A DNA stretch of 64,000 bases, taken from an uncultured Bacteroidales bacterium. GTDB taxonomy: Bacteria > Bacteroidota > Bacteroidia > Bacteroidales > UBA932. A model generated the notes under the pieces. It was not told the origin of the DNA. It did no database searches and was given only the letters and a program-made list of their open reading frames with translations. The stretch is taken from the NCBI GenBank assembly GCA_947305645.1, contig CAMZEC010000002.1, positions 1 to 64,000 on the forward strand, given 5' to 3'. Positions 8,010-56,454 of this stretch are shown piece after piece (position 1 is the stretch's first letter; the number at the start of each line of letters is the position of its first letter). The position numbers and the translations under genes are program-made.

Positions 8010-8058
8010 AATTCTCAAAGGTAATCATTTAATTCAAAAAATGAAGTATCTTTGTTGT

Positions 8059-10263
8059 ATGGGTGAGTTGACGAACGATATCCAGTTCCTTCCCGGCGTT
8101 GGCCCCAAGCGTGCGGCCCTAATCAAGCGTGAACTCGGCGTCAATACGCTCGAGGAGCTCATCCGTTTCTATCCCTACCGCTACATAGACCGCAGCAGCA
8201 TCACCCCCATAGTATCAGTTACTCCAGACCTTGCGTACGTGCAGGTACAGGGGAGGGTGGTAAGCCGCAACCTCATCAACATGAAGCACCTGAGCATCAT
8301 AGTGGAAGATGGCACCGGGCGCATGGAAATGGTTTTTTTCAAGGGCGTCAAATGGAATTTCGACAGGCTCGCCCCCGGCAGCGTATGGCTGTTCTTCGGC
8401 AAGCCGCAGTTGTTCAACGGACGCATCAACATTGTGCATCCCGAGGTGGATGCGCCTCAGACGGACCCGGCGGCGAAGGGTACCCTCACCGGCGTTTACC
8501 CAAGCACGGAGAAGCTTAAGAACGGTGGCATCACCGGCAAGCTGATGTGCAAGATGGAACGGGCCGCGCTGGCCCTCTGTCTTCCGGAAGTGCAGGAGAG
8601 CCTGCCCGACTATATACTTAAGAAGTACGGCCTGCCGTCGCTCGTGTTGGCGCTTCAGAACATACATTTCCCCTCCGACATGAGCGCTCTCGCGGCTGCT
8701 ACCCGCCGGCTTAAGTTCGAAGAGCTCTTCTACCTGCAGCTCAGCCTGCTGAAGCAGAAGTACGTGCGCAGCAGGGCGGCGAACGGCCTGGTGATGCCCC
8801 ATGTGGGGCCGGCCTTCCACGCCTGCTACAACGCGCTCCCGTACTCCCTCACGGGGGCGCAGCAGCGGGTGATAAAAGAGATACGGGCAGATCTTTCCGG
8901 CGGCTCGCAGATGAACCGTCTGCTGCAGGGAGACGTGGGATCGGGCAAGACGATGGTGGCGGTGCTCAGCTGCCTTATCGCCATTGGAAACGGCTATCAG
9001 GCGTGCATTATGGCGCCTACGGAAGTGCTTGCGCAGCAGCACTTTGCCAACATTCAGAAGTACCTCGCGCCCACCGGCGTGCAGTGCGCCCTGCTTACCG
9101 GCAGCACCACCAGAAAGGAGCGCAAGCCGCTGATGGCGGGGCTCGCGGACGGCAGCATTCAGTTGGTCGTCGGCACCCACGCCCTCATAGAGGAGCCGGT
9201 GCGGTACCGGGCCCTCGGGCTTGCCGTTATTGACGAGCAGCACCGCTTCGGCGTGAGCCAGCGTGCCGCCCTCTGGTCGAAAGGCCCCTTGATGCGGTAC
9301 GACCAGCGGAGTGGTGCGTGGGCACCGGTGAGCGATAGCGAACGTCCGGCCATCCCCCCTGGGGGGGCGCCGGGGGGGAGAACCATCGAAGACCAAAACG
9401 TGCCACCCCACGTTTTGGTGATGACTGCAACACCGATTCCGAGGACGTTAGCTATGACGTTTTACGGGGATTTGGATTTGTCCGTAATCGACGAAATGCC
9501 TCCCGGCCGCAAGCCCGTGCAGACCATGCTCATAGGGCAGAACCGCTTGCCGGCGATGTACCGCTTCATGCGGGAGGAGATATCCAAGGGGCGGCAGGTT
9601 TTCGTGGTGTACCCCATGATCTTCATAAACGAGAAGATGGAGGACGTGAGCAACGTGGAGCAGGGCTACGAAGACATTGTGAAGGCGTTCCCGCTCGACG
9701 AAGGGTACAAGGTGGCCATAGTCCACGGGCAGCAGAGCAATGAACAGAAGCTCTTCAATATGAAGGCTTTCGTTGAGGGCAGGGCGCATATCCTTGTTTC
9801 CACAACGGTGATAGAAGTGGGCGTGGACGTGCCGAACGCCAGCGTGATGGTGATTCGGAGCGCCCAGCGTTTCGGCCTGAGCCAGCTGCACCAGCTGCGC
9901 GGCAGGGTAGGACGCGGTGCCGAGAAATCCTACTGCATACTTGTCAAGGACCCCAAGACCGGAAAAGACGCCCAGGAGCGCCTGGAGCTGATGTGCGCCA
10001 CGGAAGACGGCTTCGAGATTGCGGAGAAGGACATGAAGATGCGAGGCCCCGGCGACCTCGAAGGGACGCAGCAGAGCGGAATGCCCATAGAGCTTCATAT
10101 TGCTTCCCTGCTTCGCGACGGCGCCATGCTGGACGAGGCTCGTTCATGCGCCATGAAGGTGCTGGATGCCGACCCCGGATTGGACAGGCCTCAAAACTCC
10201 GTTTTGCTCAAGGAACTGAGAAAAGGCAAGTACGACATAAAAGACTACAGCAAAATATCCTGA
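8059..10263 (+). CDS. recG: ATP-dependent DNA helicase RecG with an about 38-aa in-frame insertion
   Basis: GVGPKRA wedge N-terminus; GDVGSGKT, DEQHRFG, TATPIPRT, QLRGRVGRG; start moved to MGELTND because the -7 element TATCTTTG (8047-8054) lies inside the longer ORF. Confidence 0.95.
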   Translation: MGELTNDIQFLPGVGPKRAALIKRELGVNTLEELIRFYPYRYIDRSSITPIVSVTPDLAYVQVQGRVVSRNLINMKHLSIIVEDGTGRMEMVFFKGVKWNFDRLAPGSVWLFFGKPQLFNGRINIVHPEVDAPQTDPAAKGTLTGVYPSTEKLKNGGITGKLMCKMERAALALCLPEVQESLPDYILKKYGLPSLVLALQNIHFPSDMSALAAATRRLKFEELFYLQLSLLKQKYVRSRAANGLVMPHVGPAFHACYNALPYSLTGAQQRVIKEIRADLSGGSQMNRLLQGDVGSGKTMVAVLSCLIAIGNGYQACIMAPTEVLAQQHFANIQKYLAPTGVQCALLTGSTTRKERKPLMAGLADGSIQLVVGTHALIEEPVRYRALGLAVIDEQHRFGVSQRAALWSKGPLMRYDQRSGAWAPVSDSERPAIPPGGAPGGRTIEDQNVPPHVLVMTATPIPRTLAMTFYGDLDLSVIDEMPPGRKPVQTMLIGQNRLPAMYRFMREEISKGRQVFVVYPMIFINEKMEDVSNVEQGYEDIVKAFPLDEGYKVAIVHGQQSNEQKLFNMKAFVEGRAHILVSTTVIEVGVDVPNASVMVIRSAQRFGLSQLHQLRGRVGRGAEKSYCILVKDPKTGKDAQERLELMCATEDGFEIAEKDMKMRGPGDLEGTQQSGMPIELHIASLLRDGAMLDEARSCAMKVLDADPGLDRPQNSVLLKELRKGKYDIKDYSKIS

Positions 10264-35331: not shown

Positions 35332-36182
35332 AATTCTTTTTATTGTCAACAGATCATCTTCAAACTAAACTATGGTTTGGAGATGATGCAGATTATGCTG
35401 TAGCTATGAACTATGTGGCAATTACGGCATACAGATATAGCGTGAATGTAGTTGCCTTCATCTTAATGTCAAACCACGTTCACTTCATTTTGGAATGCGA
35501 AAAAGAAACAGCTGCCGACTTTGTTTCTTTCTTTAAGGAGATGTACGGGCTGTATCGTCGAAAACGCTACGGTGACACTCAATATTTGCGTGGACTCTTG
35601 GTGGATATTCAAAATGTACCACTGGAAAATGAATCGATGGAACGAGCAATAGCATATGTTCAGTCAAATAGCGTAGCTGCGCGTCTTTGTACACATCCGT
35701 CAGGGTATCCATGGGGTACCGGGAATGTATTCTTTGATTCGACCTTTTATGAAGTACATCCGGTAGGATCGCTTTCCGCAAGAAAAAGAGCAAGTATCAT
35801 GCACAGTAAGCTTCCGGTTAATCCCGGCTGGTCTTTGGGGCCTGGCGGTTTCATTTTGCCTAAGTGCTATGTTACCACTAGTTTTGTAGAAGGGTTGTTC
35901 AGAACGCCTTCCAGATATCAGTACTTTTTGGATAACTCTTCTAAAGTACGAAAGACTCGAGAGCAAGTGAGCCCGTCCTTTTCAGATCAATTGGTGTTAA
36001 CGGCGTCGCTTAACTTATGCCATTCATTGTTTCGAGCAAATAGTATTGATGATCTTTCTCCTTCTCAAACGGCTGAATTGGTAAAACAACTAAAGCGAAG
36101 ATTCTCTTCTGACGCTGCGCAAATAAGCAGGACTACCGGTGTGGCATATTCAGAAGCCCTTCGGATTCTTGAAAGCATATAA
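35328..36182 (+). mobile_element. REP-associated tyrosine transposase-like (RAYT, Y1/HUH family) CDS
   Basis: AFILMSNHVHFILE (HUH as HVH) and AIAYVQSNSVAARLCTHPSGYPWGTG matching the Y1_Tnp pattern YI..NPv.a.lv..p.dYpwSS; ATGA overlap with AraC gene. Confidence 0.82.
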
Positions 36183-36183
36183 T

Positions 36184-36270
36184 GATTGCGCCTACTCTCC
36201 TTTTTCTTTCAGGGGGTAGGCGCAATATCGCTTGTTTTTGATTCTACCCTCAATCCAAATAGGGAGGGTA
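36184..36270. repeat. REP/BIME-like element copy A (hairpin 1 plus hairpin 2)
   Basis: Hairpin 1 attgcgcctac/gtaggcgcaat (36185-36195/36216-36226); hairpin 2 taccctc/gagggta (36245-36251/36264-36270); 36184-36232 identical to 39222-39270. Confidence 0.88.
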
Positions 36271-39173: not shown

Positions 39174-39270
39174 GATTCTACCCTCCCAATTTGGATTGAG
39201 GGTAGAATCAAAAAATAGCAAGATTGCGCCTACTCTCCTTTTTCTTTCAGGGGGTAGGCGCAATATCGCT
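39174..39270. repeat. REP/BIME-like element copy B (hairpin 2 plus hairpin 1)
   Basis: Hairpin 2 gattctaccctc/gagggtagaatc (39174-39185/39198-39209, perfect 12 bp); hairpin 1 39223-39233/39254-39264; 49 bp identical to copy A. Confidence 0.88.
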
Positions 39271-55362: not shown

Positions 55363-56454
55363 GTGAAAACAAAGTTGCTCGGAAAAAATCCGGACGAGCT
55401 TTCCGCCCTGGCCGCAGACTGCGGGCTGAGGCCTTTTGTGGGCCGTCAGCTTGCTGAATGGCTGTATGTGAAAAGGGCTTCGGACTGGGACCAGATGAGC
55501 AACATCTCCAAGGATTCCAAGGCCCGGCTTCGGGAAAAATACGAACTCGGTACATCCGCTCCCATAGGCTCCGCCCGTTCCAGCGACGGTACCGTCAAGT
55601 ATCTCTTCAACGTTGGGCCAATGAGAGATCCGGTGAGCGTAAGCGAACGTCCGGCCATCCCCCTTGAGGGGGCTCAGGGGGTGGGATTATCAGACAGATT
55701 CGTCGAATCTGTCCTGATTCCGGATGAGGACCGTAAGACCCTTTGCGTCAGTTCGCAGGCGGGCTGCCGTATGGGCTGCAGTTTCTGCATGACCGGACGC
55801 CAGGGGTGGCACGGCAACCTGGATGTTGCCGACATACTCAACCAGTTCATCAGCATCCCGGAATCATCCGGGCTCACCAACGCGGTTTTCATGGGCATGG
55901 GCGAGCCTCTGGACAATTACGACGCAGTCTCCCGGGCCATCGGCATCCTGACTGACGAAAAGGGTTTCGGCTGGAGTCCCAAACGCGTAACCCTTAGCAC
56001 CATCGGCGTGCTGCCTGTACTCAAGCGCTTCCTGGACGAGCACCGCTGCCATCTGGCAGTCAGCCTCCACAATCCCTTTCCGGAGGAGAGACTGGAGATG
56101 ATGCCGGTGCAGAAGGCGTGGCCACTGGATGATATAGTCGCCCTGTTGCGCCAGTACGATTTTTCCGGCCAGAGGCGGGTCAGCTTCGAATACACCATGT
56201 TCGCAGGATGGAACGACGACAAACGGCATGCGGATGCTCTCATACGCCTCCTGGGAGGCCTGGAGTGCAGGGTGAACCTCATCCGCTTCCACAAGATACC
56301 GGATTTCCCTTACGACTGTGCCCCTGCCGTAAGGATGGAGGAATTCAGGGACAGACTAAACAAGCACGGATTGGTATGTACGATAAGAGCTTCCAGAGGC
56401 GAGGACATTCTCGCAGCGTGCGGAATGCTTGCCGGACAGCGCTCGCAACAGTAG
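55363..56454 (+). CDS. rlmN: 23S rRNA/tRNA adenine-C2 methyltransferase RlmN with an about 25-aa in-frame insertion
   Basis: CRMGCSFC radical SAM motif; MGMGEPLDNYD; VSFEYTMFAGWND; GTG start 4 nt after the -7 element. Confidence 0.93.
   Translation: MKTKLLGKNPDELSALAADCGLRPFVGRQLAEWLYVKRASDWDQMSNISKDSKARLREKYELGTSAPIGSARSSDGTVKYLFNVGPMRDPVSVSERPAIPLEGAQGVGLSDRFVESVLIPDEDRKTLCVSSQAGCRMGCSFCMTGRQGWHGNLDVADILNQFISIPESSGLTNAVFMGMGEPLDNYDAVSRAIGILTDEKGFGWSPKRVTLSTIGVLPVLKRFLDEHRCHLAVSLHNPFPEERLEMMPVQKAWPLDDIVALLRQYDFSGQRRVSFEYTMFAGWNDDKRHADALIRLLGGLECRVNLIRFHKIPDFPYDCAPAVRMEEFRDRLNKHGLVCTIRASRGEDILAACGMLAGQRSQQ

Follow-up and report, generated by a model that had tools for sequence, protein, structure and literature searches.

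The window, i.e. the whole 64,000-nucleotide stretch of Bacteroidales DNA analysed here, contains two in-frame copies of one short repeat, in rlmN and in recG, as the original prediction had proposed. The repeat is probably a dispersed element which is translated, selfish and tolerated by its hosts. Most copies adjoined at their 3′-end an inverted repeat of which the outer arm is host coding sequence, and this host-derived hairpin beside the element had escaped the original prediction. The features of the window, all on the forward strand, are the following.

55363-56454, +: rlmN coding sequence, host of the first insert, 364 codons including stop, with a putative GTG start
55618-55689, +: in-frame rlmN insert of ca. 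72 nt, left edge placed to within a few codons
55630-55654, +: stem-loop B of the element (CCGG...CCGG), the stem of which covaries among copies
55657-55684, +: conserved core ATCCCCCTTGAGGGGGCTCAGGGGGTGG, from pattern search and conservation profile
55689-55718, +: right-hand inverted repeat of rlmN, ATCAGACAGATTC / gtc / GAATCTGTCCTGAT, from inverted-repeat scan and ortholog comparison
8041-10263, +: recG coding sequence, host of the second copy, an ORF with Pfam RecG domains
9289-9396, +: in-frame recG insert of ca. 108 nt, edges approximate
9325-9381, +: element core in recG, 86% identical to 55630-55686 over 57 nt
9392-9419, +: right-hand inverted repeat of recG, ACCAAAACGTG / ccaccc / CACGTTTTGGT

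The rlmN product matched the Pfam families RlmN_N and Radical_SAM, and was aligned by phmmer to Escherichia coli RlmN (3rf9) with the alignment split around the insert, which in the rlmN frame reads PMRDPVSVSERPAIPLEGAQGVGLSD between KYLFNVG and RFVESV. The stretch from KYLF to RKT was 144 nt in the window vs. 72 nt in short orthologs of the same genus (genomes G283, G176 and G047; loci L208, L237 and L240), which sets the insert at 72 nt or 24 codons. Part of the tail of the predicted extra residues (ATCAGACAGATTC) is an arm of a hairpin with native sequence and lies outside the repeat core. The extension is not family-wide, as the core was present in 5 of the 33 RlmN sequences compared and was absent from PDB relatives, e.g. 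3rf9. In the predicted model of the window RlmN (mean pLDDT 80.4, 23 sequences), the insert connects the strands at 78-86 and 111-120, with pLDDT falling below 50 over residues 90-97; the insert is accordingly modelled as a disordered loop at a beta-hairpin turn.

Other features were seen in the rlmN and murE loops. Two tandem copies of the element with an 81-bp period, the frame still being kept, were found in rlmN of G303 (L034, 1400-1700). The RlmN loops of G199, G322 and G079 were unusually long (the stretch from KYLF to LCVSSQAGC reaching 115 residues), poorly conserved and without the core. Other short repeats were in frame in the same loops of murE in G000 (L061, 1449) and rlmN in G006 (L197, 1757), with the sequences GATCCTTCGCTCCGCTCAGGATGACA and TTTCTCCACTCGCTTCGCTCGGTCGAAATGAC.

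The window RecG was likewise aligned by phmmer to RecG 1gm5 and 9wm0 with a split at the insert, which is flanked by LWSKGP and (N)VPPHVLVMTATP and lies between the DEQH and MTATP motifs, a position occupied by a short connection in the solved structures of RecG. The segment measured 174 nt vs. 66 nt in short orthologs, hence the insert of 108 nt. Two further copies were identified in the genome of the window (2.25 Mb in 94 contigs, 78.7% complete), one in murE in reverse orientation (89%) and a truncated one in gltD. A match in dusB (L009, E-value 0.036) was rejected as a chance hit in native-looking sequence. Empty orthologous sites were found for rlmN, recG and rsmG, and the length differences were multiples of 3 nt. 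For RsmG, identified through its own motif and search, the difference was 72 nt (G322 or G079 vs. G199), and RsmG of G199 shared 95% identity with the G322 query across the part that aligned.

The 28-nt core pattern, allowing up to three mismatches, was found at ca. 76 places in 28 of the 400 genus genomes searched, with 1-8 copies each, when the reversed pattern gave no match in these 400 genomes or in the genome of the window. An exact 26-nt pattern returned 95 stretches from 85,488 GTDB species; the matches listed were all from Bacteroidales metagenome-assembled genomes (MAGs), mostly ruminant-derived, and one was named Candidatus Cryptobacteroides merdigallinarum. No match was obtained in ca. 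290 genomes representing 183 further genera of this order, only members of the genus being hit among 295 order genomes, and no copy was present in the viral contigs, plasmids and phages searched. The element has moved repeatedly within one genus of Bacteroidales, probably Candidatus Cryptobacteroides and largely of ruminant origin. That the repeats are due to chance or to assembly error has a negligible probability: the genomes are indeed MAGs of varying completeness, but the same sites recur across independently assembled genomes from several projects, the reversed control is empty, and the arms of the hairpin vary with the host sequence.

In a three-gene tree, of which several nodes were weakly supported, the insertions were scattered. 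Copies in recG were forward in G000/G303/G159, G322/G079 and G080, and reverse in G064 and G155, the same loop thus being occupied in either orientation depending on the genome. Copies in rsmG were found in G118, G283, G364, G322 and G079, and left junctions common to the rsmG copies suggest that some of them spread by descent or recombination and do not all represent independent insertions. The recG loop is a hotspot, since unrelated inserts were present in it in G057, G149, G199, G283, G096 and G301. A second repeat (AACTTCGCTTCGCTCATCCC ... ACGAGGCCAYGGGYGGCCACGG) was in frame in this recG loop of other species and also occurred elsewhere (L249, L250, L254 and L255 in recG, L251 reversed, and L038, L046, L080, L109 and L164). 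Furthermore, recG of G301 (L248, ca. 2782) had a third, different in-frame insert with the inverted pair GGCAAGCAGGTCCCCTCC and a perfect palindrome adjoining it.

In total, 101 non-redundant copies were collected; ca. 74 belong to the coding type and the other 27 to a related one. Nearly all coding-type copies were in an open frame without stops, in loops of ca. 27 unrelated enzyme families. Hosts named by Pfam matches included RecG, RlmN, MurE, a GltD-like oxidoreductase, MiaB-like and RlmI-like proteins, TrpC, RsmF, a SpoIID-domain protein, a biotin carrier, RNA pseudouridine synthases, DnaX, UvrA, MetRS, a TrmB-like protein, UvrD, CCA nucleotidyltransferase, a U32 peptidase, PolA, PurL and a chorismate-binding enzyme. 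One coding-type copy (L018) was apparently intergenic, upstream of ruvC. In forward orientation the core has a single stop-free frame, ATC CCC CTT GAG GGG GTG CAG GGG GTG AAG, and this is the frame used by the coding copies; the recurring peptide is PDRDSDYPAIPLEGVQGVKA and its variants, with SERPAIP or SDYPAIPLEG in many proteins. About nine tenths of the coding copies were forward (ca. 27 host families forward vs. 5 reverse in our reading), despite the larger number of open frames in the reverse direction. The same strand and frame, which had been predicted for the element, is thus a strong tendency but not a rule: copies in murE, recG, uvrA, rsmF and uvrD were reversed, use open reverse frames and encode other peptides (HPLHPLKGDGR, TPCTPSRGMAG). 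Judging from the reading frames, the element would be translated as an extra segment of the host enzymes. Separately, a peptide like GPLPLTxPRVARF recurred in unrelated proteins (L021, L088 and L155), which hints at another in-frame repeat.

The variety of hosts together with the occasional reversal indicates a DNA repeat, not a shared protein domain. The recurrence of SERPAIP or SDYPAIPLEG in many proteins is what a common module would give, but the unrelated peptides of the reverse copies, the intergenic relatives and a stem that covaries at DNA level leave this explanation with hardly any probability. The number of unrelated hosts, the kept frame, the empty orthologous sites and the presence of both orientations all accord with the dispersed element tolerating translation that had been foreseen. 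It is also very improbable that the element is left untranslated, i.e. spliced out or skipped by ribosomes in the manner of a mitochondrial byp or an intron. Hairpins within coding genes do resemble byps (PMC6649704), but of the three forward frames only one is stop-free, which is the one used by the coding copies, and the insert lengths are divisible by three. Keeping the frame would be unnecessary for an element that is removed, and intron, intein and bypass were rejected on this ground.

Conservation of the coding type extended from about -47 to +31 around ATCCCCC, a part of ca. 75-80 nt with three potential hairpins, and the total insert including the arms was 72-123 nt. The related type was mostly intergenic and also occupied the methionyl-tRNA synthetase linker (L036, L108, L119 and L132); intergenic copies adjoined terminators and had tRNA or tmRNA genes in their vicinity. 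By eye, direct duplications were discerned at two of these intergenic copies (L056 and L116). Stem B is maintained by compensatory changes across copies. Columns -26/-4 were CG in 51, AT in 7 and GC in 4 copies, and columns -25/-5 were GC in 50, CG in 10 and TA in 2, with 63 of 64 paired in both cases; pairing at both exceeded all 2000 shuffles, the P value being only indicative, as the copies are related sequences. Folding of single copies gave several hairpins with z scores of -2.1 to -6.7, the lowest from the host-derived hairpin, and an Rfam search at the element gave no match to a known structured RNA above the gathering score.

The 3′-end of the element (GGGGGTGAAGG) adjoins the inverted repeat, the outer arm of which encodes, for example, native HVLV in recG and native ESVLI in rlmN. 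When inverted repeats were scanned in the 75-nt window after the core, the median score was 10 vs. 5-5.5 in control windows (Mann-Whitney P = 3.6e-33). Scores were above the control 95th percentile in 83 of the 101 copies, when ca. 18 had no strong right-hand repeat. The structure is one-sided, 57 of 74 copies being above threshold on the right vs. 6 of 74 on the left; a symmetrical left-hand inverted repeat was tested and was absent, and a weak left palindrome seen by eye in rlmN failed across copies. In the reverse copies examined, the hairpin was at the same end of the element as in forward copies.

In recG of G155, native ACAACGTTCCCGGCTTTGGGC, which encodes the QRSRLWA also conserved in orthologs, has its exact inverted copy of 21 nt six nt further on, and this copy was found in no ortholog; G064 was similar. 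Most uninserted orthologs had no palindrome, with scores of 4-6 vs. 9-21 with the element. In rsmG of G199, however, a perfect palindrome, GGTGCCCAGGTCctgGACCTGGGCAC, was present without the element, and the hairpin there may predate insertion, or the element may have been lost. Similarly, recG of G204 and G258 (L259 and L262) carried a near-perfect coding palindrome, AAATTGTGGGCC/aaag/GGCCCGCAATTT, without the element, which points to palindrome growth independent of it. A hairpin that always pre-exists is contradicted or strained by recG of G155, and one that is always created at insertion by rsmG of G199. On these grounds we think that palindromes grow by template switching and that the element inserts at the same fragile sites.

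Some bacterial elements, among them group IIC introns and the insertion sequences that target REPs, are known to seek out hairpins. An ordinary transposase or recombinase of this kind, placing the element beside a palindrome or terminator already present in the host, would agree with rsmG of G199 and with the intergenic relatives at terminators and at tRNA and tmRNA 3′-ends. This explanation is unlikely, given the low palindrome scores of most uninserted orthologs, the 21 inverted nt of native codons in recG of G155, and a presence of the element that correlates with neither Y1 transposase nor reverse transcriptase. Matches to the Y1_Tnp profile were found in genomes with and without copies, and G118 (83% complete) had four copies and no such match; G199, G250, G322 and G080 carried copies without an RVT_1 match, which speaks against a derivative of a group II intron or another retroelement. 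Within the window, a weak Y1_Tnp (RAYT-like) match was found at 35409-35579 in a 290-aa frame, beside repeats at 36172-36270 and 39179-39270 (a direct one of 61 nt, 92%, and an inverted one of 55 nt, 91%), and these may possibly form a REP-type unit.

The likeliest insertion route of the selfish element would be template switching by fold-back, to which we assign a probability approaching even. A nascent or broken 3′-end would fold back at a native mini-hairpin, copy ca. 10-20 nt of itself, switch to the element as template and then resume, leaving behind the one-sided inverted copy. Surviving copies would be those that keep the frame in a tolerant surface loop, and the product would be a disordered peptide, e.g. 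APDRDSDYPAIPLEGVQGVKA, without required function. A wider reading is more doubtful, namely that a class of mobile repeats inserts by self-primed fold-back, with an inverted target signature at each insertion and in-frame landing in enzyme loops, several unrelated repeats sharing hotspots in the genus.

By analogy, the element resembles the coding repeats of Rickettsia in mode, being in frame and probably translated and selfish, with a host-derived hairpin at one end in addition. The Rickettsia palindromic elements (RPE) and Wolbachia coding palindromic repeats (Ogata et al.; reviewed in PMC10969869 and PMC3767692) are small palindromic repeats in unrelated core genes, in frame and translated with a recurring peptide. 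The present element likewise lies in frame in unrelated core genes, would be translated with a recurring peptide and has hairpins supported by covariation and folding, and neither group has a known mobilising enzyme. The differences are the phylum, here Bacteroidota, the core of ca. 75-80 nt vs. 100-150 in those repeats, the copy number of 1-8 per genome, and an inverted stretch of the host gene copied at one end of the element only. The GTDB matches listed being all from Bacteroidales, the likeness is probably one of kind and not of descent. A literature search, with most subscription journals outside its coverage, returned no RPE-like family in Bacteroidota.

REPs are extragenic sequences of 20-40 bp with a GTAG or CGTC tag (PMC3733652). 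REP/REPIN-RAYT systems share with the element the short hairpin repeats in bacterial genomes, whereas the element is longer, mostly intragenic and does not track Y1_Tnp. Inverted copies of coding sequence are likewise made and kept in quasipalindromes formed by template switching (PMC8794818, PMC8604942) and in the coding palindromes of Nematomorpha mitochondria (PMC6649704), but in those cases no dispersed repeat is brought in beside the palindrome. MITEs are comparable in being small, dispersed and non-autonomous and in their ability to fuse to ORFs, but here neither conserved terminal inverted repeats nor a consistent target duplication was seen, and a search covering Y1 and RVT_1 yielded no parent transposon.

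Coding palindromic repeats have hitherto been regarded as peculiar to Rickettsia and Wolbachia. A comparable, apparently unrelated family is now found in gut Bacteroidales, in recG, rlmN, polA, dnaX, uvrD and purL among others, and selfish repeats can thus lengthen essential-type enzymes repeatedly outside these two genera. The inverted copy of target sequence on one side only provides a testable signature of the way in which such repeats without an enzyme of their own insert.
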